36,052 nucleotides of DNA from positions 1 through 36,052 of the IMG/VR virus record IMGVR_UViG_3300034375_002046. One strand, written 5' to 3'. Source of the stretch: a virus. Below, piece by piece: positions 4,073 through 35,732 of this stretch (position 1 is the first letter of the stretch; every line of letters starts with the position of its first letter). The notes beneath the pieces were generated by a model. That model worked only from the letters and a program-made list of their open reading frames with translations, searched no databases and had not been told where the DNA came from. The translations under genes and the position numbers were made by a program.

Positions 4073-4083
4073 GGGGGTGACTT

Positions 4084-5310
4084 ATGACGTTCTCAACACG
4101 AACACAACTAACCGCCGAGCAGCGGGTATCCAAAGCTCTGGTTAATATCATTGACCACAGGAACTACATCGCATTAGCCGGTGTGCTGATGATGGGTAGT
4201 AAGGAGGTACGAGATGATGTTCCTACAGCTTGCACCAACGGGCGGGACGAGTGGTACGGACGGGAGTTTGTCGATAGTTTGACTGACCCTGAACTACGTT
4301 TCCTTATCTTGCACGAGTGTTATCACAAGCTGTATCGCCATCTGACTACGTGGAAACATCTGCACGACAAGGATCATCGGCTGGCTAACATAGCATGCGA
4401 TCACGTTATCAACTTGCAGATACTCAGTGACAAGTCTGTCAACGATGACGGTACCTTGTTTGTTGAGATGCCTAGATGCAAGGAGACTGGTCAGCTAATG
4501 GGACTTGCAGATACACGTTTCTCTGAGATGAACAGTGAGCAGGTGTTCAACATCTTATACGCTGAACAGGAGGAGCAACAGCAATCTGGTGAATCCGAAC
4601 AGGGTGATGGTGAGGGGTTTGACGATCACGATTGGGAGGGTGCCGAAAGCATGTCGGACGAGGAGCAACAGCAACTTGCCGAGCAGATCGACACCGCGAT
4701 TCGTCAGGGTGCATTGACTGCCGGTAAGGTTGGTAGTGGTGGCAACCGTGCGATTGATTCGCTGCTGCAACCGGAGATCAATTGGGTCGATGTGTTGAGT
4801 GAGTTTGTTACCGAGACATGCCGAGGTACAGATTACTCAACGTATGCCAGACCCAATCGCCGGTACATGTCAGCCGGTATGTACATGCCGAGTGGTGTGT
4901 CCGAGCAGGTAGACGAACTTGTTATCGCTATCGACACGTCAGGCAGCATTGGTCAGGCAGAGCTAACTAAGTTTCTGTCCGAGGTGCAGGGTGTGGTATC
5001 CAACGTCAATGTGAACAAGATTCGCGTGTTGTACTGGGACACCAAAATCTGTGCGGATGAGACGTACGAAGCCGAAGACATTGACAGGCTGGTTGAGTCA
5101 ACTAAGCCAGCCGGTGGTGGTGGCACTGACATAAGCTGTGTAAACGAGTACATGGCAGAGCATAACATCAATCCCCAAGCGGTGATCGTATGCACGGATG
5201 GATATCTGGGTGGGGATTGGGGCACATGGAACTCGCCCGTACTGTGGTGCATTCTTGGGCACGACACTGCAAGACCTAATGTGGGCACTGCTGTCCACGT
5301 AAACCTTTAA
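4084..5310 (+). CDS. VWA-domain protein with metallopeptidase-like N-terminus (DUF2201 type)
   Basis: This 408-residue protein has two parts. The N-terminal part carries HECYH at residues 77-81, an HExxH zinc motif, followed by helical sequence with further His residues as in DUF2201-type metallopeptidase-like domains. A Gln/Glu/Asp-rich linker spans about 160-205. The C-terminal part is a von Willebrand A domain with a MIDAS site: DTSGS (284-288), Thr348 with Asp349 in GGTD, and TDG (371-373). It starts 11 bases after the MoxR-type ATPase gene with AAGGGGGTGA upstream. ATPase plus VWA pairs act as chaperone-like machines that insert metals or remodel complexes. Whether the HExxH site cleaves protein is untested. 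Confidence 0.8.
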   Translation: MTFSTRTQLTAEQRVSKALVNIIDHRNYIALAGVLMMGSKEVRDDVPTACTNGRDEWYGREFVDSLTDPELRFLILHECYHKLYRHLTTWKHLHDKDHRLANIACDHVINLQILSDKSVNDDGTLFVEMPRCKETGQLMGLADTRFSEMNSEQVFNILYAEQEEQQQSGESEQGDGEGFDDHDWEGAESMSDEEQQQLAEQIDTAIRQGALTAGKVGSGGNRAIDSLLQPEINWVDVLSEFVTETCRGTDYSTYARPNRRYMSAGMYMPSGVSEQVDELVIAIDTSGSIGQAELTKFLSEVQGVVSNVNVNKIRVLYWDTKICADETYEAEDIDRLVESTKPAGGGGTDISCVNEYMAEHNINPQAVIVCTDGYLGGDWGTWNSPVLWCILGHDTARPNVGTAVHVNL

Positions 5311-20049: not shown

Positions 20050-20073
20050 GCCCCCCTCTGGGGGGCACTTTTT
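20050..20073 (+). terminator. Intrinsic terminator between converging operons
   Basis: GCCCCCC (20050-20056) and GGGGGGC (20060-20066) form a 7-base-pair pure G/C stem with a TCT loop, followed by ACTTTTTATT. This is a strong rho-independent terminator for the plus-strand early operon. The T tract touches the stop codon of the minus-strand giant gene at 20072-20074. On the minus strand the stem is not followed by a T run, so termination there would be weaker. Confidence 0.8.
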
Positions 20074-23000
20074 ATTCCTCACCGTAAAGCAATCTATAGT
20101 TCTCTTCAGCTTGCTCTATAAACCTTCGATCTACAATCGCCCCTCTAGTGAGTTCTGCAATTGCCGTACCTCTAGCTCTGGCAGCTAATGATTGTCTTAA
20201 ATTTTTACCGCTTATAGGTCTTTCTGGATGGTCATCATTAAATTCTTGGATATCTTCCTCTACTTCATCTCTCAGAGAATAGTCCCCAGTTTCCATCGCT
20301 ATTTTATGGGCATAAGCAAAATCGTTTAAAAGATTAGACCTACGAGTTTGTATTCCCCTATTTAGTCTGTTGTTAAGCGCGGCTGCGTCTCTTGCTCGAC
20401 GCGTACTGAATGGTGCAAACCCAAGCCCCTGCGCTATTACATCGCCCATAGGTATTTCACCACTAATCATCGGGTCTCCACGGGTAGTGTCATAACCTTC
20501 AGTACGGAACCTGTAGGCTTTTAGTCCGTTGGATATGGCGGTGGGCAGTACTTTTTCAAAAGCACGATTCATGTTCTGAGGGTTACCATCAAACAAGTCT
20601 GTGGCACCGTCTATGTACCGCATGCCCACACCAAGTGTTGGGCCGCCGATTGCTTCTAGCCAGTACTCCAACTCACTTGAAGGAACGTAATTGCCACGAT
20701 CTCGTATAAGTAAGTTGGTCAAGTTAATACGATCAGTCAGGTCTACACCACCCATATTTGCGATGGCACCGTAGTACCATTCAGGCCCAAGCGTTTTAGC
20801 AACGATAGTATTTGCATCATCTTCGTCGTCATCTAAGAACATGTTCCATATAGCCATTGCTACACCGTACAGTGGGACACCTTTAACACCTATCAGTGTA
20901 GCGCCCGTACCAGTGAGCCACATAAATGTATTTCTTAGAATCCGTGCTTCTTCAATTTCAGCTTCAGTTCTGGCAGCTCCGGTCATATCTTTAAATATAG
21001 CATCCAGCATACGTATCTGGGTGTATAAGAACTGGCCGGGAACACGCTTAAATTGCATAACCAAGCTACCCAGATTCGTTTGACCAAACCTAGAGCCAGT
21101 AGTTAGCAATGCCGAAGCGTTAACCCACAAGGCAACATCAGTAGCTTTTCTGGAGGCTTGTTCTCCGTACTGGTCAACATCTGCTGCATCAATATCTTTA
21201 AACTTTTTACCCGTCAGTTTTTCCATCTCAAGTATGTAGGTACTCATCGCACTGACTTGACGAATACCACGTTCACTGTGATGGAACATAAAGCTGGATA
21301 CGTAGGCTAGCTTATTCACAAACGGACTACTGGGACTATCAGGATCAGATGTTTCTGCTGCGATACTGCGAGTATCAAAACCCATTTCTTTAATACGGGT
21401 TATCAAAGGAGCGAAGTTTTTGTACCTCTCTGCCTTCTCACCTTCAAATTCATTAGTTATCGCAAACCCACCGTGGTCATACCGATCTTGTTCGGTAGTT
21501 ACGAAGTCTCCGTTTGCATCTACAGTTACCTCACCCAGACCCTCTCGTTTTACTTTGCCCCATGTCCCTGCGTAAAAGTTCATAGCTTCAAGCGTAGCTT
21601 TAGTAGCTTTGAAACCACCATACTCACCCGCAAGCCGAGACTGAAGCACCACAGGAATAATTGATACGTTGACAGCTACAGAACTGACACTCAAACCGAT
21701 AGTAGACATAAAGGTCAGTGATCGGGCTAGTCGTACATGTTCGTTCAAGTAAGGATTCTTACTGAACTCTGCATAGCTTGGTAGCTTGCCAAACTGTTGG
21801 TCTGTATCTGCTTTACTTCCAGCTACAGCTACTGCGACTTCTTTCATAAATGTGTCGCCAGCAAGTTCAGCCTGTCGGCCTTCTTCCATAACACGATTAG
21901 CTGCACTCTGTAGTTTGACCTTGTGCTTTATGTTTGCGTAACTATTAATGAACGCAGGCATAGACTTTTCAAACGTATAAATTGGGTCTGCTTCAAATCC
22001 GGCAAAGCCTCTACGTTCTTGGCGAGCCTGTACAATTGATTGCTCTGGAAGCGATTTAAGTACTATGTCAGCAAGGAAGTCCTGTATCTCGCCTTTCTTA
22101 CGGTCAATAGCTGCCTTATCTTCTTTACTAGAAAGCTCTAGGTCTTTGAATATACCTTCTAAGTCGGCTTTTAACGTGGTGACCAAAGATATTGGCAGTT
22201 GACCGTTAATTATCCTAGACCGCATTTGATCCGCAGTAAGTGTTGGGTTGATATTTATGACAGTAGGGTCATTACTCAACCGATCCGCAAACACTTGCCT
22301 ATCGCCGGGGTTATCAAATGAAGCATAACCAAATTCAGTACCTTCGACTCCCGCCTTTTGAAACTCATACTGTATCCAGTACTCGCCTTCACGGTAGAGT
22401 CTGAAGTATGGGTCTACGACGCCGACATCTAACCGCTTACGGAACAGAACTTCACGTACAGTTTTCTGTACGTTGGGGTCTAACTCCAATTGATTTATGT
22501 TGGCATCTTCGGCTTCAAGAATCTTGTCGTTAATGTTTTTGTACATGTCGCGCATCTTGGTGTACGCAGCACGTTGAGACGAATTAAGTTCCAGCATTAA
22601 CGCTTTGAGTTCGTCATACTTATCGGTACGCTCTTGTGTAGCTTCAGTAAGTCGGATGGTACCGATAGTAGTAGTCTTTCCGGCTTTCTTAGCTTCACGG
22701 CGTTCATCTTCCAGCTTCTTCTTGAACTCTTCCGCTTTTTCTTTGGTATCGAATAGCTGTTCTTTCTTCTGAAGGTCTTGAGTACCGTACTCGACACGGT
22801 GCTTGGCGTAGTAGCTTCTGGGACGGGTAACATCAATACCGTCTATAGTGCTTTCACTTACCAGCCTACTGAACTTCTCTAACGCAGCACTGTCTACACC
22901 CACACCCGCTTTGGTACTAAAAGCTCCTAAAATGTCTTTTAGTATCATAGTGAAGGTTTTCATTTCTTCATTACGAGTGCCGTCTATGTCGTACAGAATA

Positions 23001-26000
23001 TCCTGCATTTCTTCGACGGTAGGGAGTTTACCTTTAGACATATCTACAATGGCTTCTAAACCGAGACCATTGATAGCATTCATCATAAACTTGGCGCTCT
23101 TGTTATTTATGTTTGTCAAGAACGACTCGTAGGCTTCCTCTTTAGTTTTCTTGTCCAGACCGGTGCGACCTACGCGGGTAAGTTCTACCATCGCCTCGTC
23201 TACATCGCCGTTAGTCAGGTTGTCAACTACGGAGGTAGCATCTCGGGTGTTAGGCTCAGTTGCCATAATCACGTTTATGTATTCTAAGGCTTTAGTTGTG
23301 GCGTTAGTTGCGTCTATGTTAAACCCTAAGAATCTAGCAACTGCGTCTAAGAAATCACGCCACGCACTTCGCTTTTTACCACTGGGCTTGTAAGCAGCCA
23401 GTTGAGCTTTGAATTCTGTATTACTGTACACCTCTGCCGCAAACTCTCGTAAACCTGCCATCGCGTAAGCGTTGGGTAGTTTGTCTTTCAGATTGCTGTA
23501 CAGTTTCTGTAGCTTAATTGTGACCGGATGGTTGGGGTTAGACAGTACTGAATGCGTAGCTGCGTGTGCGGATTCGTGCAGTACAGCGTGTGTACTGACC
23601 GGCATATCCAGATTAATCTGAATAACATCGTTCTGGAAATCGTACGCAGAGGGCGCTGGTTTACCATCTCTGTCCACAACACCTTCGGCAAACTCAACTG
23701 CGGTGCTCGTACCGCGCAACCTTTCCGCAAGTGTACGGGCAGTGCGTGCGATATCAGTGTTGGGGTTATCTCTGGCTATCTGATCTAGTGCGCCACCTAT
23801 ATTGTTGTCCAACAACAAATCGTTTACTGTCTCGGACACTTCCGGCATAGAAGCAGCAACAGCGTTCTTAACTAGAAGGTCTTTAGTATTTTGAAGTCCC
23901 TCTAAACCTTCAGGGTTTTCAACTGTGCCGTTTTCTACTTCTGACTCAGCTACTATTTCTTGGACGTTACCATCAACAATACCGTCCTTGATGGCTTGAT
24001 CTACATCAACTTGAATAACTTCTCTCGGAGCCTTTGCTTCTGCACTGTTCCACCAGCCTGTTCGGTTCCACGCTTTTGTTTGGGACTCTTGTTCTCCTGT
24101 ATACAAAGTGCCAGCTATGGTGCCCCTTAGACTTTCAAGTGATTTGTTCCTACTATCTCTTCTGTTTACAGCGTCTTCTAAAAAGGTTTGGTACCGTAGA
24201 TGCTGATTCAGGTTTTCTAATAGTTCTGGGCTACCCTTATCCCTAATCGCTCGTATTGCCTTACGAGCTACTTTACGTGTATCAGCTTCTGCTTTAGCCA
24301 CTTCAGGGTGTCTGGCAACTGTAGAGTCGTAAGCAATCGTAGCCAAAAGATTATTTGCATTTCTAGCAACCTTTGCGTACCGTGCCAGAGCTTCATCTGT
24401 AGCGAACAAGTCTCTGTCGGTAGGGGACAATGGGCCTAACAGTTGAGGTTGCTGGGCAAATGCTTCGGGGGCAGGCGCTCTACCTATACGTTTTTGTCTT
24501 TCTTGCTGCTTCTCTACTTTTTTAGTTTTTGTTGTCTTTTTCCTTTTCCTTTTCCTAGCTGTAGGTGGTGCCGCTTTTGCCGCTTCTTTCTCTGCTTGAA
24601 TCCTAGCTTGCTCTTGTTGTAACGCAGTCGGACGAGGACGGGTAGGGGCAAATAAGTCTTGCTGGGGAACAGCCTCTGGGGTTTCTTGTAGGAAGTTGTT
24701 TATATTGATCTTGGTCTGTTCACTGACGTTGCGATTACGGCCTAAGTTGGTCAAAGCAGTACGAACCTCTTCGCTGGTAACGTCCATACCTCGAACTTGT
24801 TTACGTACAGGAGCTTGAGGGGCAACGCCAAGACGATCAAAAAATCGCTTGTCTGCTTTACGTACTTTAGGTGCTTCTTCTACAACTTCCTCAGTCTGAG
24901 GGGCACGGGCGGCGGCACGTTCAGCACGCTCTATAGCTGGGAATTCAAGCTGACCTTCAGTACCCCGACCCGTGCGATCCATTCGCTCTCTATTAAGTCG
25001 AGCAGCTTCGGCACGCTGTGCATCTTGTTCAGTGGTCTCTACAGGAATAGGCCGCTGTCTACGCTCTGGTATGAGTGCTTCTAACTCTGCGGTTCCTTCT
25101 GCCTGCGCGGCATCTCGTGCGGCTTCTACGGCTTCTTGTTCGGCTTCTTGGGTGGCAAAAGCCCCCCGCACATCGGCAGCACGGTTAATTAATGTTAGTT
25201 CTTCTTCGGTAGGCTCAGTATTTGTAAAACCTTGTCTGCCCAACTCCGCACTAAATGCACGCTTTAAGTTTTCTACGCCGTCAATATCTTGACGCTCTAT
25301 AATAGGTAGGAGTACTTGTCTACGTTTCTCGACGGACTCTCGCTGGCGACGCTCGGCTACGCGACCTTCAGCTAACGCTCGCTCATCTTCTCTGGCAGCT
25401 CGCTCTTCAGCTTGTACAGCTTGCTCTTCGGCGCGTTCCGCAGCCTCACTAGCCGCTATCTGTTCTTCTATATCTATTTGGTCAGGCGATACTTCCGTAG
25501 CTCTTCGTACTTCATCTTCCGGTTCTTCCGGTTTTACAAGAGGGGTGGTATCTAAAACAGCTCTTATGCGCGAAACAAGTTGAGGTTTATAAGCTCTTAC
25601 TAAACCACGATCAATGTAATCTTCTAATATTTGTTCTGCTTCCGCTCTTTCTTCTGGATCAGCCCAATTTAACCCAAACAATTTTTCAGCAGTATTTGTT
25701 TCAAGATCGATACCTATTTCTTCTAAAGTATCTGTATCTAAAATATCGGATACTGTTGTTGGCCCCAGTAGGTCACCTTCTGGTGGAATAGGTTCTGGTG
25801 CTGCGGGTTCTTCTGGTGCTGGTTCTTCTGGTGCGGCTGGTTCTTGCGGGGTTGGGCCACGCTGCCTACCCGGAACAATCATTTCGGTAAACAACGCAAG
25901 GATAGCACCTACACCACCACCGATCTTGGCAGACTCGCCTACACCCTCAAAGGTTCCGGTGTCGGGATCGTAGACACCCTGTGAAATAAGATTCTGTAAT

Positions 26001-26707
26001 ACTTCAGCCGAGGCTTCTTGCGCTGCCTCATCCATAGCCGCTTTAGTTATACGACCAAGTTTGCCTTCGCTTACCCTACCAAGCCGGGCTTTGAAACTGT
26101 TATTTAACGCATCGGCAACATTGCTAGTATTAGGGCCAAGTGCTCTCTGCGCACGCCTGATAATCCGCGTAGGGCCTATCATCTCAAACGCGCCCGGAAT
26201 CATACCGTAGCCAGCAGCAGTGCTGATCTCTTCCTCAGTAGCCCCAGCAGCCTCTGCACGTTGCGCAGCTTCACCTGCACCAGCACCCACACCTACGGCG
26301 GCACCAGCAATAATACCGGGGGCACCGAACGGAGCAGCAGCTAAGAACGGTAGTGTCGAACCGACACCACGCATCAGGTCAAGATAGGTACCTTCGTAGG
26401 CTTCATCAGGGGCAAGGAACTCCTGTACCCCGCCGCCAACTTCGGCAATCTTACGGCGAGCAGCCTGTTCGGCTTCTTCGGGTAGTATAAATGACGCACC
26501 GGTCAGGGCAGACTCAATCATCCCAGCACCACCGGCAGCAATAGCTTTGGCAGTTTCAGGTATGTAGCCGAACAGAGAAGTGTCTTCAGTTGGCTCTGGC
26601 TGTGGGCTGTATGTTTGTATGGCGTTAGCTAGTTTTCTAGCTGCCTCTACATCCCCAGCGGCGTGCGCATTTTTTAACGCACTACCGAGTTCCTCAAGAG
26701 TCGCCAT
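20072..26707 (-). CDS. Giant polyvalent ejection-type virion protein with zincin domain
   Basis: This 2211-residue protein has Ala/Gly-rich hydrophobic stretches at about 50-175 and 255-275 that could cross a membrane. A long charged, Gln/Glu/Arg-rich disordered part (about 290-780) contains a Lys/Arg cluster. A zincin metallopeptidase motif HESAH (1044-1048) is followed by a downstream EFAAEVY segment that may give the third ligand. A PYFRLYREG segment near 1429 resembles the PLxRFG domain, and a helical C-terminal region (about 1650-1960) resembles an LPD38-type domain. Such large polyvalent proteins are packed in virions and injected into the host. ATG 26707 has AAGGG nine bases upstream. 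It is the last gene of the late operon. Confidence 0.75.
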   Translation of the reverse strand: MATLEELGSALKNAHAAGDVEAARKLANAIQTYSPQPEPTEDTSLFGYIPETAKAIAAGGAGMIESALTGASFILPEEAEQAARRKIAEVGGGVQEFLAPDEAYEGTYLDLMRGVGSTLPFLAAAPFGAPGIIAGAAVGVGAGAGEAAQRAEAAGATEEEISTAAGYGMIPGAFEMIGPTRIIRRAQRALGPNTSNVADALNNSFKARLGRVSEGKLGRITKAAMDEAAQEASAEVLQNLISQGVYDPDTGTFEGVGESAKIGGGVGAILALFTEMIVPGRQRGPTPQEPAAPEEPAPEEPAAPEPIPPEGDLLGPTTVSDILDTDTLEEIGIDLETNTAEKLFGLNWADPEERAEAEQILEDYIDRGLVRAYKPQLVSRIRAVLDTTPLVKPEEPEDEVRRATEVSPDQIDIEEQIAASEAAERAEEQAVQAEERAAREDERALAEGRVAERRQRESVEKRRQVLLPIIERQDIDGVENLKRAFSAELGRQGFTNTEPTEEELTLINRAADVRGAFATQEAEQEAVEAARDAAQAEGTAELEALIPERRQRPIPVETTEQDAQRAEAARLNRERMDRTGRGTEGQLEFPAIERAERAAARAPQTEEVVEEAPKVRKADKRFFDRLGVAPQAPVRKQVRGMDVTSEEVRTALTNLGRNRNVSEQTKININNFLQETPEAVPQQDLFAPTRPRPTALQQEQARIQAEKEAAKAAPPTARKRKRKKTTKTKKVEKQQERQKRIGRAPAPEAFAQQPQLLGPLSPTDRDLFATDEALARYAKVARNANNLLATIAYDSTVARHPEVAKAEADTRKVARKAIRAIRDKGSPELLENLNQHLRYQTFLEDAVNRRDSRNKSLESLRGTIAGTLYTGEQESQTKAWNRTGWWNSAEAKAPREVIQVDVDQAIKDGIVDGNVQEIVAESEVENGTVENPEGLEGLQNTKDLLVKNAVAASMPEVSETVNDLLLDNNIGGALDQIARDNPNTDIARTARTLAERLRGTSTAVEFAEGVVDRDGKPAPSAYDFQNDVIQINLDMPVSTHAVLHESAHAATHSVLSNPNHPVTIKLQKLYSNLKDKLPNAYAMAGLREFAAEVYSNTEFKAQLAAYKPSGKKRSAWRDFLDAVARFLGFNIDATNATTKALEYINVIMATEPNTRDATSVVDNLTNGDVDEAMVELTRVGRTGLDKKTKEEAYESFLTNINNKSAKFMMNAINGLGLEAIVDMSKGKLPTVEEMQDILYDIDGTRNEEMKTFTMILKDILGAFSTKAGVGVDSAALEKFSRLVSESTIDGIDVTRPRSYYAKHRVEYGTQDLQKKEQLFDTKEKAEEFKKKLEDERREAKKAGKTTTIGTIRLTEATQERTDKYDELKALMLELNSSQRAAYTKMRDMYKNINDKILEAEDANINQLELDPNVQKTVREVLFRKRLDVGVVDPYFRLYREGEYWIQYEFQKAGVEGTEFGYASFDNPGDRQVFADRLSNDPTVININPTLTADQMRSRIINGQLPISLVTTLKADLEGIFKDLELSSKEDKAAIDRKKGEIQDFLADIVLKSLPEQSIVQARQERRGFAGFEADPIYTFEKSMPAFINSYANIKHKVKLQSAANRVMEEGRQAELAGDTFMKEVAVAVAGSKADTDQQFGKLPSYAEFSKNPYLNEHVRLARSLTFMSTIGLSVSSVAVNVSIIPVVLQSRLAGEYGGFKATKATLEAMNFYAGTWGKVKREGLGEVTVDANGDFVTTEQDRYDHGGFAITNEFEGEKAERYKNFAPLITRIKEMGFDTRSIAAETSDPDSPSSPFVNKLAYVSSFMFHHSERGIRQVSAMSTYILEMEKLTGKKFKDIDAADVDQYGEQASRKATDVALWVNASALLTTGSRFGQTNLGSLVMQFKRVPGQFLYTQIRMLDAIFKDMTGAARTEAEIEEARILRNTFMWLTGTGATLIGVKGVPLYGVAMAIWNMFLDDDEDDANTIVAKTLGPEWYYGAIANMGGVDLTDRINLTNLLIRDRGNYVPSSELEYWLEAIGGPTLGVGMRYIDGATDLFDGNPQNMNRAFEKVLPTAISNGLKAYRFRTEGYDTTRGDPMISGEIPMGDVIAQGLGFAPFSTRRARDAAALNNRLNRGIQTRRSNLLNDFAYAHKIAMETGDYSLRDEVEEDIQEFNDDHPERPISGKNLRQSLAARARGTAIAELTRGAIVDRRFIEQAEENYRLLYGEE

Positions 26708-26718
26708 ACTTGCAGCCC

Positions 26719-29409
26719 TTATCTATTTGTATATTGCTCTACCAGAGCATCTATTTCAGGATCGCCCGTACTGCCTTCTCCTGCACCTGCGCCTAGTATC
26801 CTACCTACTCGCTGTGCTGGAAGACCTATTTGTCGGGCTATATCGTTCATTGTGGTCTGTTTTATACCTCTTAACTCTGTGATGTAGTTACGAACTCTAG
26901 TTTTATCGTCAGCTTTAGCAAGCGGGTCAGATTCCATATCGGCAAGTACATTGTCTAACGTCATAATATTTCTATCTAAGTTAGCGTATAGAGTCATTAA
27001 GCGACCTTCAGCAGCATCATCAAGCTGTCTAGCTGTAAGCACTGAGTCTATTTCAGCTTTCAATACATCTAAATTGGCGCGAGACTGTTGAATAGCCATC
27101 TCTGCATCACGGTTAGCTATGGTGTTTACGTAGTTACCCGCAGACTGTATAGCCTGATTCAGAGTAGTGCGTGCGGTTTGCTCTGCCCCTCTTCCAGCTT
27201 CATATACTTGTCCGCGTATATTACGTTGTGCTTTTTCAAGTTCAACAGTAGTTTGTGGTCTTACTTTAGCGGCTTCGCGTTCTTGCTGTTGCTGCTGTCT
27301 ACGTAGTTGAGACTGAGAACCAACACTTCTTCTGGCTTGATCTACAAGACTATTACCACTTAGATACGCTTGCATAATTAGTTCATTTTTACGTCTGGCG
27401 CGTTCGGCAGGACTAAGAATCTTACCGTAGTAGTCTTCATCAGCTTTAATAAGGTCTTCTACAGCTTGTTTCTCGACATCAGACATACCAAGTGCTGCAC
27501 GCGCTGCGGTTTCTTCTGCGGCTCTAGCACCTTCCATAGCACCAAGTTGTTCACCCAGTACTCCTTCTAGCTGGGTTTCTAAAGCACTTGGTGTGCGTTG
27601 GTAGTTACCAATATTAGCGGCTTCGGTGCGCATTCTACCTATTATTTCCTGCGCTGGGTCTGTAGGTGTAGTAGGAGCGGGTTGTCCTGCACCTTGTTGT
27701 GGTGTAAACAAGTTTGCCACTATCCCAGTATTTTCCAAGTCAGTACCACGAGTAGCTGTACGGCTAGGAGGTTTTGACAAGTCTAACGGTACGCCACGAG
27801 GAGTTTCTGGTTGTGCAGCTTGTTCTCTTCTGCGCTCCACGTTACCCATAGCTTGCCCAATTTCGTTTCTTGTAAGTCCTCGGTTAGCCAGCGCAATTTT
27901 TGTATTAAACTCGTCACGACGGCGTTCTCGTTCTTCTGCTTTTTCTTCTTGAGACGCCATAAAGTCTCTAAACATCTGCATAGGCGTCCTATCACCTCTT
28001 TGCTCTCGCCTTTCTGCGCTACTCATATAAGTAGGACGAGGAGGTAAATCTCTCTCGGGTCGAGCCGCAAGAATAGCTTGTATTTCTGCTTCTAACTCAT
28101 CATCTATGTAATCGTTTGAAGGGCTACTATCTTGTGCTGCCACGGTTTCTCTATCTGGATTTCGTCCTTCTAACATAGCCAACATTTGATTTGGGCTAAT
28201 ATCAGTGCCTGATTCCATTTTGGCTATAGCAGATAAAATTCTTCGTCTAACACTAGGATCAGTTAAATCAATAGGCGCATCCGTAGGAATACCTGTTTGT
28301 TCAGAAACAAACTTTAGGTAGTTATCAGTGTCGTTTTCGTTAGGGGGCGCGTACCTAGAAACGGTTTCACGTAAAGTTGCTACATCTCCAAGCTCTGGAT
28401 AATTACTAAGTAGTCTATCCGCTGCTCTTACACTTGAAGTCACGTCTTCAAAATCGACAAAACCTCTAGTAGCGCCTGTTTGTCCTTGCCAATTTTGATT
28501 GTAGTCGCGTATGTTGAATGGATTATTGGCCCCTACAAAACTTCCATCAGGCCCTGCGTACTTTTTTACTTCGCCACCATAGGCTAATTCGGCATCAGGA
28601 TTACCACCGGCCATAATAGTTTTGAGTCGTTGGACTTTAAAAAAGGTATCAGGCGGAAAGGTCTTTAAGTTTTCGCTTTCCATTCTTGCGCTTTCCATAT
28701 CCCCAGCAGCTTTATAACGCTCAACTTGCTGTTCTATCGACATGTAATTTTGTACATTTAGATCACTAGATAGCTCGTTATACTCCTCGCTCATCATTTT
28801 ATTGAACGGGTTAAGCTGTTGTATTTGAGCTGTTTCGCCCTCTGTAGGGCCGCCTTCGGCATAGCCAATAATTCCACCACGAGCGGCCATTTGTGGCATA
28901 CGAGCCATATTTGGCGCAGAAAGTTGTGATATACCTGCTGCCATCGGACGTTGTTGTGGTTGAGCTTGAGGCATAGCTTGTGGTTGTGGGCGACGCTGCA
29001 TACCACCTAGTCCGGCTAACATGTTTGGCGCAGCACGACGTTGTGGTTGTGGGCGACGCTGCATACCAGCTACTTGAGCACCGGGCATTAGCCGTTGCAT
29101 AAGTCCAATGATACCTTCAGCAGCTTGTTGTTTACGCTGATCGAGTACTGGCATTTGAGGAACTTGTTGGCCTTGCGCTTTTGCCAAATCTTGGTCAGCC
29201 GATTTCAGTAAATCAACGGCTTCCTGCGCTTTCATAGCAGCACGAGTTTTAGGGTCTATCCCTAAATCTTGTAAATCGTTATCTACGACATCAACCGCCG
29301 CTTGCATACGTTGTGGATTTACATTCGGCATAGCTGGTCTAGGCTGCTGTACGGGACGCTGTTGGGGCATCAAAGCCTGTAAACCTTGTGGTGTTTGCTG
29401 CATAGCCAT
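26719..29409 (-). CDS. Virion protein with lysozyme-like muralytic domain
   Basis: This 896-residue protein has a Pro/Gln/Met-rich N-terminus (about 1-175) with two copies of GMQRRPQPQ, and the motif ARGGIIGYAEGG. Residues about 285-415 form a domain with NNPFNIRDYNQNW, GFVDFEDVTSSVRAADRLL and a YAPPNENDT segment. This matches a virion-associated peptidoglycan-degrading domain found in many phage structural proteins (NNPGNIR type). The C-terminal half is long and helical, rich in Gln, Ala and Arg. It probably belongs to the internal ejection apparatus and helps open the cell wall. It ends 12 bases before the giant protein starts. The enzymatic activity is inferred from motif likeness only. 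Confidence 0.65.
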   Translation of the reverse strand: MAMQQTPQGLQALMPQQRPVQQPRPAMPNVNPQRMQAAVDVVDNDLQDLGIDPKTRAAMKAQEAVDLLKSADQDLAKAQGQQVPQMPVLDQRKQQAAEGIIGLMQRLMPGAQVAGMQRRPQPQRRAAPNMLAGLGGMQRRPQPQAMPQAQPQQRPMAAGISQLSAPNMARMPQMAARGGIIGYAEGGPTEGETAQIQQLNPFNKMMSEEYNELSSDLNVQNYMSIEQQVERYKAAGDMESARMESENLKTFPPDTFFKVQRLKTIMAGGNPDAELAYGGEVKKYAGPDGSFVGANNPFNIRDYNQNWQGQTGATRGFVDFEDVTSSVRAADRLLSNYPELGDVATLRETVSRYAPPNENDTDNYLKFVSEQTGIPTDAPIDLTDPSVRRRILSAIAKMESGTDISPNQMLAMLEGRNPDRETVAAQDSSPSNDYIDDELEAEIQAILAARPERDLPPRPTYMSSAERREQRGDRTPMQMFRDFMASQEEKAEERERRRDEFNTKIALANRGLTRNEIGQAMGNVERRREQAAQPETPRGVPLDLSKPPSRTATRGTDLENTGIVANLFTPQQGAGQPAPTTPTDPAQEIIGRMRTEAANIGNYQRTPSALETQLEGVLGEQLGAMEGARAAEETAARAALGMSDVEKQAVEDLIKADEDYYGKILSPAERARRKNELIMQAYLSGNSLVDQARRSVGSQSQLRRQQQQQEREAAKVRPQTTVELEKAQRNIRGQVYEAGRGAEQTARTTLNQAIQSAGNYVNTIANRDAEMAIQQSRANLDVLKAEIDSVLTARQLDDAAEGRLMTLYANLDRNIMTLDNVLADMESDPLAKADDKTRVRNYITELRGIKQTTMNDIARQIGLPAQRVGRILGAGAGEGSTGDPEIDALVEQYTNR

Positions 29410-29420
29410 TACTTATATTC

Positions 29421-30284
29421 CTATGCTGGAGGATTTAATATGTTATTTAACAACGTATAGATATCAGAGCCGCCTTGAGCACCAGCTAGTAAAGAACTTA
29501 AGCCGGAAGGCTCCGTGTACTCGTAGCTGGCAACGCCAACTGGCATACCTTGCAGCAATGACTGCATGTACTGTACTTGTTTGTAAGGGAAGTCACGTTC
29601 TTCTTCAAACTGAGCGATATCTGCGGCAATGCCCTCACCTTCGATACCCCGTTGTTCAGCACCCGCACGACGTTGGGCTTCAAATACGTCAAACCCAAAC
29701 TGATTCATCATTTCTTGAGCTTGTCTACGTGCTTGTTCTTCAGTATTAAACTGACCCTGCGCTTCTGTGAAGGCTTGTTGGTATCCAGTACCGGTAATGT
29801 CCGCTATGTTACGCAATGTGTTACGGATTAACTCAGAATCCATAATAGCTTGACGGCCACCACCATAAGCTCCGGCTTTACTTAGCCGACTAGCTTGTTT
29901 AGTTCGGGCGATTTCAGCTTGACGTTGCGCCTCTGCGATCTGCGGCTCAAGGGACATTTGCAGATAAGGAGACATGTACTGCTGCGCTACACCAGCCTCA
30001 GTAAATGAAGTAGGTGTATAGCCCCCCATCTGTGTAATCGGAGCAGTTAAAGCACCCAGACCTTGGTAGGCTTGCGTTTGTAGACCAGATTCTCCAGCAG
30101 TTAGGGGGCCTTGGTATGCGGTATACGGCATACCAGCAAGAGCCTGCCCACGACCAAGCATTTCCGTGACATACGGGCCAGCCCACGAAGAAAGCGAAGA
30201 TTCCTCCGCTCTTGTGGTATTTGAAAATAAATCGTCCGACGTATCGGTCGCTATTGCGTTTGGATCGAGATCATCATCGCCCAT
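29421..30284 (-). CDS. Gln/Ala-rich virion structural protein
   Basis: This 287-residue protein has short N-terminal repeats of Gly, Tyr and Gln (AYQGPLTAGE, AYQGLGALTAP), a central helical part rich in Ala, Gln and Arg (QIAEAQRQAEIARTKQASRL, GAYGGGRQAIMDSEL), and a Gly/Leu/Asn-rich end. This composition is typical of podovirus internal or tail-associated proteins encoded between tail genes and ejection proteins. No catalytic motif is seen. GAGGTG precedes the ATG at 30284. It lies 8 bases after the upstream 300-residue gene, in an operon read right to left. Confidence 0.6.
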   Translation of the reverse strand: MGDDDLDPNAIATDTSDDLFSNTTRAEESSLSSWAGPYVTEMLGRGQALAGMPYTAYQGPLTAGESGLQTQAYQGLGALTAPITQMGGYTPTSFTEAGVAQQYMSPYLQMSLEPQIAEAQRQAEIARTKQASRLSKAGAYGGGRQAIMDSELIRNTLRNIADITGTGYQQAFTEAQGQFNTEEQARRQAQEMMNQFGFDVFEAQRRAGAEQRGIEGEGIAADIAQFEEERDFPYKQVQYMQSLLQGMPVGVASYEYTEPSGLSSLLAGAQGGSDIYTLLNNILNPPA

Positions 30285-30292
30285 GATTCACC

Positions 30293-31195
30293 TCAACTTG
30301 GCATAAATTTGTTTGGGTTTATTTGGGTGCCCTGTGTCTGACGGCCAGTTCTGGCCTGTCTCACTCTATCCATCATAGAGTAAAGTTGCTCGGCACCTGC
30401 ATTGGAATTGCCATTACCAAGATGGCTGACTACATCGGCAGGGATAACGAACTCGCCATCACTGAGGGCAGCGGGTTGCGTGGCGTCTATAGTAGCAGGA
30501 ATCCTATCTGCCATGCCATCTGTTGGGCCGCCTAAGTAGTAGCCTTGTCCCATGCCGTCTAAAGAAGCTAGTCCACCTTCCATCATACCAATAGCGCCGG
30601 GTTTGGAGGCTTCTATTAACTCGTCTAATCTAGTTTGTACAACGTCTGCACCAGAAGCAGGAGCCATATAACTACGTTGCGCAGGAATTATTCCTGTAGA
30701 AGCTACCGTGGGAGCGTATTTGGTTGAAACAGGACGTGTTTGCCTACTGAGATTAGTAAGATTCTGTGTGGCTAAATTCCATTTTTCTGCGTCTGTAGCG
30801 GCTTGTGCAGCGTCTATAGCGGCTTGGTTAGCAGCAGCATCGCCCCCCGTACCTACATACTGGGTCTGCGTAAAATACCGACGGCCACCTCCGCCCGGAC
30901 GGCGGTCTGGGTCATATGCTGCGGCATCTTCTTGAGTATACATAGGTACTTGCTGACGGTAGGCTGTGTAATCAGGAATACCACCCATGTACCCAAGAGG
31001 GCCTTGGCTATCTCCACCAAGCCCTAAAAAATCAGAAATAGTACTAGAGTCTTTGGCACGAGAAGCCAGAAATAACCCCAGTACAGGGGCTACTTTGGAC
31101 ATGTCTATAGTCCCATCGTCGGTAGTAAAAAAGTCAGTAACTACGTCAACCGCAGCACCTACTGTGTTACCTACCCAATCAAAGAATTCGCCCAT
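30293..31195 (-). CDS. Virion protein with conserved GEFVIPADVVSHLG tail
   Basis: This 300-residue protein has an N-terminal amphipathic or hydrophobic region (GNTVGAAVDVVTDFFTTDD, then VAPVLGLFLAS), a low-complexity middle, and a C-terminal part with MMEGGLASLDGMGQGYYLGG, GPTDGMADRIPATID and LSDGEFVIPADVVSHLGNGN. The last segment is a frequent signature among marine phage structural proteins, of unknown role. GAGAGGC sits just before the ATG at 31195, inside the end of the upstream gene, whose TAA lies one base before this start (TAAGATG). It is probably a head-tail or internal virion component. Confidence 0.6.
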   Translation of the reverse strand: MGEFFDWVGNTVGAAVDVVTDFFTTDDGTIDMSKVAPVLGLFLASRAKDSSTISDFLGLGGDSQGPLGYMGGIPDYTAYRQQVPMYTQEDAAAYDPDRRPGGGGRRYFTQTQYVGTGGDAAANQAAIDAAQAATDAEKWNLATQNLTNLSRQTRPVSTKYAPTVASTGIIPAQRSYMAPASGADVVQTRLDELIEASKPGAIGMMEGGLASLDGMGQGYYLGGPTDGMADRIPATIDATQPAALSDGEFVIPADVVSHLGNGNSNAGAEQLYSMMDRVRQARTGRQTQGTQINPNKFMPS

Positions 31196-31196
31196 C

Positions 31197-33182
31197 TTAG
31201 CCTCTCAATAAATCTATAAGTTCATCAAACTCATTATAAGTATCTATTATACCGCCACTTTTTGCTGCATAAGGGCGGCTTGCCATATTAGGGTTAAAAA
31301 TACTTTCGCCACCTATATCGTATAAATAGTCAATTTGCGCTAGCTCTGGCCCTGTTACTCTAACGCCACGAGAACTACTAGGCAAACTCGTACTGGGGGT
31401 TTGTACGACACCACAAATTTCTGGATTAAAGTACGCATATACTGGGTTATCACAAAGATCAGTATCTACCCCGCACTTCTCTGGGTTTGCTGCTGCATAG
31501 TCTGCATCCAAGCACGGGTCAGTTTTTGTACCGCACTCTATCGGATTCTCTGCTGCATATGCTGGATTTAAACAGGGGTCTTCGGGAGGTGGCGGTGCGC
31601 CTTCATAACAGAAACTCTGTACAGTCTGCCCCGTAGGCACTGCTCTGCCGGGCTTATCACTATTCGGCGGACACTCGATAATACGGACTGTCCCGCATAT
31701 TTCTGGGTTTTCAGCAGCATACGCTGGATTTAGGCAAGGATCAGTTGTTGTCCCGCATATTTCTGGGTTTTCAGCAGCATACGCTGGATTTAGGCAAGGA
31801 TCAGTTGTTGTCCCACATATTTCTGGGTTTTCAGCAGCATACGCTGGATTTAGGCAAGGATCAGTTTTTGTACCGCATATTTCTGGGTTTTCAGCAGCAT
31901 ACGCTGGGTCTAGGCAAGGATCAGTTTTTGTACCGCATATTTCTGGGTTTTCAGCAGCATACGCTGGGTCTAGGCAAGGATCAGTTTTTGTACCGCACTC
32001 TACCGGATTTTCAGCAGCATACGCTGGGTCTAGGCAAGGATCAGTGGGTGGAGTACCGCACTCTACCGGATTTTCAGCAGCATACGCTGGGTCTAGGCAA
32101 GGATCAAGTTTTGGCCCCATATCGCCACACTGTATGGGGTTTGCAGCCTTATACTCGGGGTCTAGGCATGGGTCATCAACAGTGATTTCACCAGTGCCTG
32201 TTGTGTCCCCACATATATCGGGGTTTGCAGCGGCGTATATCGCGTTATCACAAAGGTCATCTGTAGTAACGGTGCTCTTCTTGTCGCCACATTCCTCAAG
32301 ACTGTCTACTTCCGCACCAGCATTTTCGTACTCTGCTGGGCAAATTACTTTCTCAGCCTTTTTGGTGCCAGTACCAGACTTAGGTATACAACTGAAAGTA
32401 GCGCGGTCGTAGGTTTCGTCATCTCCACAAGTTTGTGAGAGCACAAAATGTATTGCTTCAATACCTGTTACACCAGCTTCCGCTTCTACAACGTCAGCAC
32501 CCGTACCACCACTAAGTATTATGTCTCCTCTTTCACTGCCTGTTGTAACTGTCGCTGTGCTTCCCCCCGGACGCGTAGATGTACCTTGTGGTGTAGTCGT
32601 TCCTCTTTGCTGACTTCTTGTTCCTACAGGCTCAAAATCAATACTTATGCCTCCGGGGCCAATAACAGCATCACCCCTTACATCGTTCATCCCTATGTAT
32701 TCAAGCCCTTTGTCGACATATTCAGCGGCTTTGTTCATTGCCCCTTCAAGGACATCTCCTAGTATCGGGACATCTGTTACACCGGGTATGCGTTGATTCA
32801 GCACTGGGGCTACTATTTCGGTAGGAGATATACCTAGCAGCATTCCCTCGGCCATAGCGTCTTCCAGCGCCTCCGTAGCGCCTTCAGTGCCGCCTTCCGC
32901 GCTCGTCGCTATGTCATTAACTGCACGCTCTATACGGCTTTTTGCTTGAAACTCTGCCGCTTCCTCGGGCGTCATTGGAGTTTCTTGCAAGGTGCTATCA
33001 AAGAAGCCCAGTAGGTCTAAAACACCGTAAGCGGCAGCCAGTGGCCCAAGACCCTTCGCTAAAGCCCCTAATCCTAAGCTAGCTGCTCCTTCAGCCGCTA
33101 TATTTGCAGCACCATACTTCGCTGCTGCCTGCGTACCCATTGCGTCAAAAACTGCTGGGTCTATGTAGGGGCCGTTACTCAT
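31197..33182 (-). CDS. Virion protein with 12 Cys-bearing tandem repeats
   Basis: This 661-residue protein has a Gly/Ala-rich hydrophobic N-terminus (about 22-62). A Thr/Gly-rich stretch follows, then twelve copies of a unit of about 20 residues, DPCLDPAYAAENPEICG and variants, between about residues 306 and 593. The seven central copies are contiguous and nearly identical; the outer ones have diverged. Each unit has two cysteines 13 residues apart, suggesting small disulphide-linked or metal-binding hairpins that form a rod or fibre. The C-terminus carries SGGIIDTYNEFDELIDLLRG, a motif related to those in neighbouring virion proteins. The gene is probably a tail or fibre-associated component. 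No enzymatic domain is seen. Confidence 0.65.
   Translation of the reverse strand: MSNGPYIDPAVFDAMGTQAAAKYGAANIAAEGAASLGLGALAKGLGPLAAAYGVLDLLGFFDSTLQETPMTPEEAAEFQAKSRIERAVNDIATSAEGGTEGATEALEDAMAEGMLLGISPTEIVAPVLNQRIPGVTDVPILGDVLEGAMNKAAEYVDKGLEYIGMNDVRGDAVIGPGGISIDFEPVGTRSQQRGTTTPQGTSTRPGGSTATVTTGSERGDIILSGGTGADVVEAEAGVTGIEAIHFVLSQTCGDDETYDRATFSCIPKSGTGTKKAEKVICPAEYENAGAEVDSLEECGDKKSTVTTDDLCDNAIYAAANPDICGDTTGTGEITVDDPCLDPEYKAANPIQCGDMGPKLDPCLDPAYAAENPVECGTPPTDPCLDPAYAAENPVECGTKTDPCLDPAYAAENPEICGTKTDPCLDPAYAAENPEICGTKTDPCLNPAYAAENPEICGTTTDPCLNPAYAAENPEICGTTTDPCLNPAYAAENPEICGTVRIIECPPNSDKPGRAVPTGQTVQSFCYEGAPPPPEDPCLNPAYAAENPIECGTKTDPCLDADYAAANPEKCGVDTDLCDNPVYAYFNPEICGVVQTPSTSLPSSSRGVRVTGPELAQIDYLYDIGGESIFNPNMASRPYAAKSGGIIDTYNEFDELIDLLRG
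31690..32105 (-). repeat. 60-base tandem repeats inside the Cys-repeat gene
   Basis: About seven head-to-tail units of 60 bases (one of 63) lie here. Neighbouring units differ at very few positions: those at 31741-31800 and 31801-31860 differ by one base, and those at 31861-31920 and 31921-31980 are identical. They encode the central copies of the DPCLxPAYAAENPxxCG protein unit. The high identity points to recent expansion by slippage or unequal recombination, and copy number may vary between relatives. Confidence 0.9.
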
Positions 33183-33189
33183 CTCTCAC

Positions 33190-33843
33190 CTACGGAGGTG
33201 TCGGTAGTGTCTCAGGCAATACTGAGACGAAAGTTACAGTGATTACAGCAGAGGGTTCGCCGGGGTGAGGTGCTACCGCAGTCTCAGTATCCAGCCTTGT
33301 ATCTATGTCGTCTGATGACCACATCATCTCTATGTACGACCCTGCCTGTAAATCAATACTAAAACTCCACGCAATGTCGGTACTGTCGTTGGAGCCTTGT
33401 AAAACCAAATGTCTGGCCGAATAGCCTATATCCGTACCATCTCGCCTGATCCACACATACACGTTCTTGGACGAGGCTGACCCAGTAGCTGCTTGGGCTA
33501 CAAACTGGAAGTTATAAATACCAGAATATGTTACTGTAATCTGGCTGTTAGAACCGCCGTTTATCGTTATTGCTTCGCTCAAATAAGTGTTTTCAAAACT
33601 AACTACCTGAGCTGTGTTTACTACTGCTATGGGTTGATCTGTAGTGGAGAAGAACAAACCATTAGGCTTTTCTATAAACTGACCACCAAATTCACCGGTT
33701 ACCAAGTTTACACTGTTTGCTAACCTGTTGAAAAACAAACGCAAAATATTATTTAGGTCATCTAAATATCTTCGCAGTGTAGTTCCCGTTGGCGGTATGG
33801 GTAGGGCAGGATTCTCTACCTTACTTACGAGGCGCTTAGCCAC
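33190..33843 (-). CDS. Jelly-roll-like fibre or appendage protein
   Basis: This 217-residue protein has a helical N-terminal segment (TTLRRYLDDLNNILRLFFNR) suited to trimerisation or anchoring. A beta-rich domain follows with ITVTYSGIYNFQFVAQA, VYVWIRRDGTDIGYSARHLV and LQAGSYIEMMWSSDD, a pattern resembling the C1q/TNF jelly-roll used in phage fibres and head decorations. It probably forms part of a tail or head fibre that contacts the cell surface. It starts at GTG 33843, overlapping the upstream stop (TAGTG), so translation is coupled to the tail protein gene. The sequence alone does not say which structure it decorates. Confidence 0.6.
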   Translation of the reverse strand: MAKRLVSKVENPALPIPPTGTTLRRYLDDLNNILRLFFNRLANSVNLVTGEFGGQFIEKPNGLFFSTTDQPIAVVNTAQVVSFENTYLSEAITINGGSNSQITVTYSGIYNFQFVAQAATGSASSKNVYVWIRRDGTDIGYSARHLVLQGSNDSTDIAWSFSIDLQAGSYIEMMWSSDDIDTRLDTETAVAPHPGEPSAVITVTFVSVLPETLPTPP

Positions 33844-35732
33844 TAGCCTCTCCTACCGTCAGGCCGCATATCCATCCTAGGTGCGCCCAGTTTCCAAGTT
33901 ACTCCTAGCTCTGTAGACTCAATCTTGATCGACATCTGCCGACCCCGTACCCGTGTAAATACCTGCCCTGTAAATTCTTCTACAGGAAATACGGCTGTTC
34001 TGGTGACCGTTGCACTGCTGTTGCCCCCGACCGACGCTGGGTTATACCGTCCAGAACCTGAGTTTTCCAAGGGGTTCAGAGTCATGGTAGCCGCAGGAGA
34101 ATCTGCTGTAGAGCCGTCAAACGTCATATCAGGCAGCATACGGTTAATCAGCATAAACCGGTCGCCATCGTCCAGATCGAACTGTGCTGAGGTAATATTT
34201 GCTGTAAATGCTGTAGGCGTGCCGGTCTCGTTATCATCCACACCTTTCTCGTGGTTAACCAGTTTGTTACCAAAAGTAGCAGCTATAGGAAAATCACGTA
34301 AATCAGCATCAAGCCACGCTGAGCGAGACAAATTACCGTAGTACCAGACGTTTTCGACGTAGTTATACACCACATACCGATCATTCTGTGTAGCCCCAGC
34401 AGAGCAGTAGAACCACCATATCTCATCAAACTGCTCGTTAGAACCACAGACTACCTGATCTGCTTGGCCTTGGTTAAAGTCATCAAATATATAGCTACGC
34501 ACGTCACAAGGTAGTGTTTTAACCGTACCATCATAGTAGTAGAACGTGTTCAGACCCATCCAATAAGCAATATTGTTTGAGTACACAGCCGCATTCGGGC
34601 TGGCTATGGTGATGTTTGAGCCTAGAAGCTGCGCTCCCCATACCTCTGGAGCACCCAGATATTGTAGGCCGTACAGGGCCGCATCTGACCAGACTAATAT
34701 TTCCTGTCGTGCTTGGATAGCATCAACGATTTCTGTACCGTCTGATAGCCGTAAACTACCCGCTTGGTTAGTCGCGGCAGGTGTCCAATTAGCCACGTCC
34801 TCTTGGTCAGACCAACGAATTAACATAGGATCAAGTGTAGAGGTGCCTATGTCATTAGCCCCAAAACAGAACGCAAAGCGGAATATATCTGATACAAACG
34901 CTAAATTTACTGTAGTAGGTACATCAGACGCTCCACCTAAAGAACTGACGTATACGCCCCGTGTACCGACCCCAGAGCTTGCATCCCAGTACAGTGGTGC
35001 CCCACCACGGTGGGCAAAGAACAAGTCCTCACCGAAGTTAGATTGACTCCAGATACGCATAGGAGCCAGTGTTGTACCGCCTGTACCCCACGTTCCAAAC
35101 CCCCAACGCCCCGCACCCCAACCGGAAAACGGCACTTCAATCTCATTACCTGTATTGATCTGGTAGGCACCTACGACAGAAGCCCCGCCGTTGCCTGTAT
35201 CTGATGCGTTAGCCAGAACCTCGTTGCCGCTAGTGTCCTTAGCCTCAATTGTGTAGGAATCTTCGTTAATTATGGTGGCTATCTGATACTCCTGATTGAG
35301 CACGTCCGCCGTAATATTGCCGCCTAATGAGACAGCTCCAGAAAAGGTAACAAAGTCATTCTGGATGGCACCGTGGGCTGTATCAGATACGGTAAGTGTG
35401 GCATCGCCGTTTACGGCTGCAAACGTAACATCGCCCGCTGCTGTGGTTGCTCTAATAGGGGTAACATCGAAGTAAGCCCCACCTCGTTCTATGTAGTATT
35501 TGAGGTTGGTACCAACAGCTACGAGGTTTTGTCCGGACAGCGTGGCCCAGTTGAATAGTGAGCGTGCTACACCTAGATAAGTATTGGAAGAAACCTGCTC
35601 CCAACCGCCTATTTTCTGGGGTAGGCCACGTCTGAAACGCACCTTGTCGGTCTCGTACCACTGACCTTCGGCGGCGTAACGGGTGGTTTCTCTGTTTACA
35701 CCCGCTTTGAATTGTAGTTTTTTAATCGCCAT
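33843..35732 (-). CDS. P22 gp10-like tail stabilisation protein
   Basis: This 629-residue, strongly beta-rich protein opens with LQFKAGVNRETTRYAAEGQW and DKVRFRRGLPQKIGGW, the N-terminal pattern of the phage stabilisation family (P22 gp10, Phage_stabilise). It goes on with repeated short strands such as ILVWSDAALYGLQYLG and WWFYCSAG that fit a beta-propeller-like fold. P22 gp10 sits below the portal adaptor, closes the DNA channel and builds the short tail tube. Its presence is the best evidence for a podovirus. An Ig-like insertion may lie at about 95-170. GAGG (followed by TTTAA) precedes ATG 35732. It lies 7 bases after the lysozyme stop. Confidence 0.75.
   Translation of the reverse strand: MAIKKLQFKAGVNRETTRYAAEGQWYETDKVRFRRGLPQKIGGWEQVSSNTYLGVARSLFNWATLSGQNLVAVGTNLKYYIERGGAYFDVTPIRATTAAGDVTFAAVNGDATLTVSDTAHGAIQNDFVTFSGAVSLGGNITADVLNQEYQIATIINEDSYTIEAKDTSGNEVLANASDTGNGGASVVGAYQINTGNEIEVPFSGWGAGRWGFGTWGTGGTTLAPMRIWSQSNFGEDLFFAHRGGAPLYWDASSGVGTRGVYVSSLGGASDVPTTVNLAFVSDIFRFAFCFGANDIGTSTLDPMLIRWSDQEDVANWTPAATNQAGSLRLSDGTEIVDAIQARQEILVWSDAALYGLQYLGAPEVWGAQLLGSNITIASPNAAVYSNNIAYWMGLNTFYYYDGTVKTLPCDVRSYIFDDFNQGQADQVVCGSNEQFDEIWWFYCSAGATQNDRYVVYNYVENVWYYGNLSRSAWLDADLRDFPIAATFGNKLVNHEKGVDDNETGTPTAFTANITSAQFDLDDGDRFMLINRMLPDMTFDGSTADSPAATMTLNPLENSGSGRYNPASVGGNSSATVTRTAVFPVEEFTGQVFTRVRGRQMSIKIESTELGVTWKLGAPRMDMRPDGRRG

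Follow-up and report, generated by a model that had tools for sequence, protein, structure and literature searches.

In phage P22, a block encoding gp10, gp26 (the tail needle), gp14, gp7, gp20, and gp16 leads from head closure through small genes to the ejection genes. Cysteine is absent from P22 gp7, gp20, gp16, and gp26, with four residues in gp14, and it is likewise absent from T7 gp15 and gp16, with three residues in gp13 and one in gp14. Disulfides are not expected to be the main stabilizer of proteins that are made and assembled in the bacterial cytoplasm. A second point of comparison is DSL-LC04, whose 759-aa protein (WJZ48115.1, annotated as tail tape measure; L178:16132-18411) carries an 18-aa tandem repeat and is encoded a few genes after the stabilization protein and before ejection-like genes. 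Disulfide-rich proteins of thermophilic archaea and their viruses have been described as well, and Jorda and Yeates (2011, PMC3177088) read an excess of even cysteine counts as disulfide pairing.

Here, we describe a viral locus that, like the P22 block, passes from head closure through small genes to ejection genes, with cysteine-free ejection proteins in both. It differs from the P22 block in one protein, called X below, which has no family match, a repeat-filled middle, and 30 cysteines.

Results

X lies between head-closure-like and ejection-like genes

The window, that is, the whole stretch of DNA analyzed, is a virus record of 36052 bases (IMG/VR virus record IMGVR_UViG_3300034375_002046, positions 1-36,052). 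A minus-strand block running from 35732 to 20072 encodes, in order:

33843..35732, minus strand: virion structural protein with 4 Cys (PHROG match, phrog_3287)
33190..33843, minus strand: p217, 217 aa, 0 Cys, upstream neighbor of X (weak BclA C-terminal-like match)
31197..33182, minus strand: ORF X, repeat-bearing, 661 aa, 30 Cys (ORF list and relatives)
30293..31195, minus strand: Y, 300 aa, 0 Cys, with the motif DGEFVIPADVVSHLGNG, fused to X in several relatives (ORF list and relatives)
29421..30284, minus strand: DNA-ejection-like protein, 287 aa, 0 Cys (weak match to phrog_4287, E 0.0015)
26719..29409, minus strand: 896-aa protein of the endolysin/transglycosylase type, 0 Cys (phrog_873, phrog_7182)
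20072..26707, minus strand: 2211-aa protein at the end of the block, 0 Cys, without a confident family match (PHROGs and Pfam)

Relatives of the phrog_3287 protein carry the annotation stabilization protein, and we take it to be gp10-like, of the phage stabilization type. The match of p217 to the BclA C-terminal family of Pfam (E 7.6e-7, 29.5 bits) lies below the Pfam cut-off of 38; p217 may be a candidate needle-knob protein. X sits between head-closure-like genes and DNA-ejection-like genes, and it is followed by the ejection-like and transglycosylase genes, both in the window and in those relatives that have the two anchors. Because of this gene order we place X in the virion, and its product is probably part of the virus particle. 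The sequence-only reading of this DNA had recognized no named domain in X, in agreement with profile searches in which X matched no family of PHROGs or Pfam at E values up to 1 and none of the tail tape measure profiles of PHROGs. The DSL-LC04 protein can be likened to X by place and repeat, homology aside; it has a DGEFV-type motif like that of Y but, unlike X, contains no cysteine and shows tape-measure matches confined to its C-terminal part.

Short GG[IL]-type motifs are common to X, Y, and the 896-aa protein (e.g., SGGII, EGGLAS, and RGGIIGYAEGG) and are possibly an assembly or processing signal. Elsewhere in the window, the plus-strand half contains adjacent genes for an AAA ATPase and a DUF2201 metallopeptidase/VWA protein (2933-5310, a MoxR-VWA-like pair), and the left end carries two short arrays of 18-bp units (82-119 and 674-709) with operator-like inverted sequences of the CTGACA/TGTCAG type.

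The cysteine units of X have expanded in tandem

The middle of X contains 12 copies of a 14-residue unit, C-x-[DN]-x-x-Y-x3-N-P-x2-C, all in the minus-strand interval 31413-32252. The pattern TGYNNNRAYNNNNNNTAYNNNNNNNNNAAYCCNNNNNNNTGY was matched by all 12 units in this interval and had 0 matches in 100 shuffles. From the N to the C terminus, the features of X are as follows (units from the motif scan; other Cys pairs derived from residue numbers):

32388..32429, minus strand: upstream Cys pair C252-C265, x12 spacing
32289..32342, minus strand: upstream Cys pair C281-C298
32211..32252, minus strand: Cys-pair unit 1 (N-terminal)
32127..32168, minus strand: Cys-pair unit 2
31689..32106, minus strand: central tandem block, units 3-9, period 60 bp, 6.9 copies (Tandem Repeats Finder)
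32058..32099, minus strand: Cys-pair unit 3
31995..32036, minus strand: Cys-pair unit 4
31935..31976, minus strand: Cys-pair unit 5
31875..31916, minus strand: Cys-pair unit 6
31815..31856, minus strand: Cys-pair unit 7
31755..31796, minus strand: Cys-pair unit 8
31695..31736, minus strand: Cys-pair unit 9
31608..31673, minus strand: Cys pair C504-C525, interrupting the array between units 9 and 10
31533..31574, minus strand: Cys-pair unit 10
31473..31514, minus strand: Cys-pair unit 11
31413..31454, minus strand: Cys-pair unit 12 (C-terminal)
31200..31367, minus strand: conserved C-terminal module of the X family (DIDYLYD ... GG[MI]I ... LLRG type), common to Cys-free homologues (alignment)

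A plus-strand ORF over the array (31745-32185) was set aside as antisense to the repeat. The array is discontinuous, as the stretch with its own Cys pair (C504 and C525) splits units 9 and 10, and the C252-C265 and C281-C298 pairs precede unit 1. All 30 cysteines of X fall into 15 consecutive pairs, 13 of which have x12 spacing.

Tandem Repeats Finder reported a single array in the unit region (31689-32106, period 60, 6.9 copies, 94% matches). Units 3-9 form a near-identical set, with 79-100% identity across a 42-base core; six are spaced exactly 60 bases and the seventh 63. The motif scan and Tandem Repeats Finder together confirm the earlier description of twelve units, seven of them near-identical in a 60-base register. 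Units 1, 2, 10, 11, and 12 are diverged, and pairwise pS is 0.23 among units 3-9 versus 0.73 for units 1-3 and 0.80 for units 10-12. This central peak of identity, together with a more distant phage contig (L148) in which X occupies the same slot and carries seven identical 69-bp repeats among its 13 units, bears out the recent tandem expansion that the sequence-only reading had proposed. That reading had also called for a comparison of copy number among relatives, which gave 12 units in the window, 12 in L002 (99.99% identical to the window over 12.8 kb, with the same 12 units), 10 in L003, 13 in L148, and 7 in L149; since the number differs, it is not fixed in all relatives. The flanking units of L003 and the window align one to one, and the number differs in the center. 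Some arrays, e.g., those of L004, L005, L092, and L158, end with the contig, so their unit counts are lower bounds. The array probably changes length by gain and loss of units through unequal recombination.

Cysteines are strictly paired in unit-bearing proteins

Using the even-count logic of Jorda and Yeates (PMC3177088), we found an even number of cysteines in 51 of 51 complete unit-bearing ORFs and in all 31 that remained when the set was dereplicated at 60% identity (binomial p 9e-10, to be read with the fact that these ORFs share modules by descent, so that 31 are not 31 independent trials). To be counted, an ORF had to contain a unit, 4 or more Cys, and 200 aa or more starting at its first ATG, and the Cys counts range from 10 to 100. 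The window is among the 51, as are its copies L001 and L002; without the window record the count is 50 of 50. Control ORFs from the same loci had even counts in 16 of 30 cases with six or more Cys and in 52 of 83 with two or more. Three closed unit-bearing ORFs fall outside the filter: L106 (3, odd), L129 (odd, 19 or 23 Cys, with the unit before the first ATG), and L130 (2, even). The unit-bearing ORFs thus show the all-paired (even) cysteines of disulfide-rich repeat proteins, and they share the even-Cys excess of the thermophiles; the excess is proteome-wide there, whereas it belongs here to one repeat-bearing class on phage contigs. On these counts, strict cysteine pairing in unit-bearing proteins is well supported.

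With a loose motif, within-unit spacing was x12 in 154 of 159 units and x10 in 5, a count that is biased and partly built in because the loci were fetched with x12 patterns. Linkers between units without further Cys span 5-60 residues. The L130 homologue of X has one lone unit and only 2 Cys, so the unit can stand alone. A four-ligand metal geometry would require fixed spacing between pairs, and neither these linkers nor the single-unit L130 show it. Pair parity, the near-fixed spacing within units beside free linkers, and the lone unit of L130 lead us to favor disulfides over metal, as far as sequence can tell; even parity is also compatible with paired metal ligands.

The same unit occurs outside the X family. 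Its pattern matched 90 stretches of viral contigs, among them Cys-rich proteins of other phage contigs. In the one locus beyond the X family whose neighbors were scanned with PHROGs (L101), the Cys-rich gene comes after a tail-fiber gene, a tail-fiber-assembly gene, and two small genes. It is followed by a tail-protein gene (phrog_10775), by a gene with an amidase profile as best and a head-closure profile as second match, and then by genes for three Cys-free proteins. Some unit-bearing loci, such as L106, L129, and L134, apparently encode other proteins with a single unit. Four Cys-rich unit-bearing proteins (L146, L160, L142, and L171) have 84-100 Cys per chain, all four even.

Profile matches of eight other unit-bearing proteins were weak, scattered, or of low complexity; L110 matched tape-measure profiles at E 0.007-0.06, L148 matched NUC153 at 2.5e-6 over a 9-residue stretch, and the Trypan_PARP match of L108 is its Pro/Glu repeats. 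In tblastn searches of 50,697 annotated phage records with the low-complexity filter on, there was no match for X at E up to 1, for the L148 array at E up to 10, for the L146 protein at E up to 0.01, or for the L171 neighbor gene at 1e-10. Weak matches in seven plasmid records (Levilactobacillus collagen-binding-type proteins and Streptomyces; best E 7e-4) were taken as composition matches. None of the literature matches listed deals with this repeat or slot, judged by its title and the opening of its abstract.

The middle of X is an exchangeable slot

Relatives of the slot were sampled with the phrog_3287 protein as query, taking the best 80 of 301 matching stretches plus the unit-bearing loci; an X homologue was an ORF of at least 150 aa directly after p217, which gave 70 loci, 42 of them closed. 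Lengths of the 35 distinct closed X proteins span 462-1479 aa; 29 of these proteins have 0 Cys, two have 2, and four have 20 to 32. Tandem arrays (score at least 80, period at least 9) occur in 25 of 30 dereplicated closed X genes versus 7 of the 91 other complete ORFs found at these loci. Unlike unit types fill the slot (GTGTT, VVDDGT, EPPYVP, NESDPNKTPGG, and the Cys unit), with Cys units in only some lineages. The C-terminal module DIDYLYD ... GG[MI]I ... LLRG is present in most X proteins (21 sequences aligned; L006 is cut before the module, and L073 and L040 retain part only).

X differs strongly even among relatives with near-identical neighboring genes. X is identical at 29 of 115 and 13 of 61 aligned positions in L009 and L010, whose upstream gp10 is 95-97% identical, and at 98 of 363 in L006, which has its own Cys units and a 99% identical upstream gene. 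L091, 92-94% identical to the window downstream, carries a different Cys repeat opposite the last part of the window array, its contig starting within that repeat region. The identity of p217 falls to 62-64% in L006 and L009, whose phrog_3287 protein is 97-99% identical, and this drop marks a recombination boundary. Several relatives (L024, L025, L052, and L058) have the Y motif at the end of the X ORF, and X and Y therefore probably act together. By the array counts and the unlike unit types, the whole middle of X is a hypervariable slot for exchangeable repeats, the Cys unit being one of its many fillers.

Compared with L003, X residues 241-360 show 13 synonymous and 1 nonsynonymous changes over 120 codons (pN/pS 0.021, pS 0.17), and residues 96-160 are also close (pS 0.10). 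Residues 1-95, 161-240, and 591-661 have pS values of 0.62, 0.43, and 0.56, with pN/pS values of 0.66, 0.64, and 0.58; the central units have pS 0.49 and pN/pS 0.22, their unit-to-unit matching in the alignment being uncertain. By these substitution counts, part of the Cys modules of X (residues 241-360) is under purifying selection. Such differences in pS along one gene point to block recombination between X backbones, and the Cys block can pass from phage to phage.

The neighbors of X avoid cysteine

Apart from X and the phrog_3287 protein, the block encodes five proteins, which together contain 0 Cys in 3911 aa, versus 88 Cys in 5138 aa for 14 plus-strand proteins, a contrast that covers the window; three plus-strand queries had no homologues among the relatives' loci. 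Homologues are Cys-free in 14 of 14 cases for p217, 34 of 35 for Y (including X-Y fusions), 33 of 33 for the ejection-like protein, 9 of 9 for the transglycosylase, 1 of 1 for the 2211-aa protein, and 0 of 67 for the gp10-like phrog_3287 protein. Cysteine is therefore exceptional at this block, and the earlier remark that cysteine-rich repeats are unusual in such phage proteins holds locally. X, with 30 Cys, departs from the absence of cysteine seen in T7 gp15/gp16 and P22 gp7/gp20/gp16, an absence that is no formal criterion for ejection proteins. A class without free thiols, some of whose members have 10 to 16 complete pairs, suggests an oxidizing stage in the life of these X-class or ejection-block proteins.

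Predicted structure of the array

The full-length model of X (21 homologues) was poor as a whole, with a pLDDT of 57.7 and a pTM of 0.28, and the array was its best part (block pLDDT 69-89 for residues 361-500). Units 3-9 and 12 are modeled as three short helices (HHH-HHHHHH-HHHH), and the last helix is missing in units 2, 10, and 11. A four-unit model of moderate pLDDT (67) agrees in secondary structure with the full model. Across the models (pTM 0.28-0.29), units are locally defined and their relative arrangement is undefined. Of the disulfide- or metal-linked rod envisaged from the sequence, the disulfide part gains from parity, spacing, and L130, and the rod gains nothing: the multi-repeat prediction that had been suggested returned local units arranged rather as beads on a string. 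As modeled, the unit would resemble short single-disulfide helical loops in its architecture (a short helix and one disulfide). Fold searches with the X models against PDB and BFVD gave no match with an E value of 0.001 or below. The unit profile had one match among PDB sequences, Alpha-conotoxin Vc1A (2n07), at E 0.75, which is chance level and gives no evidence of homology or toxin function for the unit.

Discussion

We propose that each unit is a short helical loop with its own disulfide and that the array serves a virion protein as a spacer of varying length and exchangeable content, a reading to which we give a probability of about 0.55. X would be associated with the virion and would belong to the head-closure/ejection block of a podovirus-like phage known only from uncultured material. 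Its N-terminal part is apparently variable, its middle is filled with exchangeable repeats, and a conserved motif marks its C-terminal end. Each 14-residue unit would be a short helical turn shut by a disulfide between its own two cysteines (C, x12, C). With each unit so closed, the array would be a string of separately stapled beads, an extended and compact spacer or tether between the ends of X. A spacer role is what the exchangeability of unlike repeats would suggest, and this exchangeability is the whole of the argument for it. The bacterial cytoplasm, where phage proteins are made, is reducing, which counts against the disulfide reading, and no oxidase was found among the window ORFs scanned, which are part of all its ORFs. 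The thiols of X would be reduced in the host cytoplasm, and the disulfides may close in oxidizing surroundings, after lysis or in the periplasm of the next host.

A more specific form of this proposal, and not fully exclusive of it, is that X is ejected with its neighbors and that the beads, forming in the periplasm of the next host, contribute to a trans-envelope conduit. Ejection-type genes follow X directly, and 29 of the 35 distinct closed X proteins are Cys-free, like T7 gp15/gp16 and P22 gp7/gp20/gp16. However, the position of X fits the places of P22 gp26/gp14 equally well, T7 gp14 and gp13 do contain cysteine (1 and 3), and a protein that had formed fifteen disulfides while still in the particle might pass the tail with difficulty; we consider this version doubtful.

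We also regard it as unlikely that X is an external adhesin or tail-fiber-like protein whose loops are displayed binding surfaces varying under host selection. The strong differences in the slot beside 95-97% identical gp10 (L009 and L010) are what such selection could produce, and the Cys-rich gene of L101 follows tail-fiber and tail-fiber-assembly genes with two small genes between. Yet the window units are much alike in amino acid sequence (pN 0.07 for units 3-9), the flanking Cys block is under strong purifying selection, and many alternative fillers are simple Gly/Thr/Pro/Asp repeats, unlike receptor binders.

Binding of zinc or an iron-sulfur center by the Cys pairs, which would make the array a metal-linked rod that folds in the reducing cytoplasm, agrees with the even counts and makes an intracellular oxidation step unnecessary. 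It is nevertheless improbable, as there are two Cys per unit and no conserved His, so that four ligands would require neighboring units, whereas linkers vary over 5-60 residues against a nearly fixed distance within units, and X of L130 has one unit and only 2 Cys. That the array is a neutral product of DNA slippage in a tolerant disordered linker, with functionless cysteines, would fit the many unlike tandem arrays in the slot but is most unlikely given the pN/pS of 0.021 in the Cys-module block, Cys counts that are all even, conservation of the unit across distant phage contigs despite different linkers, and neighbors without cysteine.

Several uncultured phage lineages may contain an unnamed class of heavily disulfide-bonded tail or ejection proteins, assembled from exchangeable cassettes and stapled only on exit from the cell as a maturation switch. 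With up to 50 bridges per chain, such proteins would be reduced during cytoplasmic assembly, and the switch would act on the particle or on an injected conduit. We offer this wider reading as a tentative possibility, with the odds against it. The all-even cysteine counts in a probable virion gene slot, beside Cys-free proteins, open the way to a direct test of when and where phage particles are oxidized. The X slot amounts to a set of natural experiments, with repeats of unlike kinds taking one another's place, and its fillers should tell what the middle of X must do.
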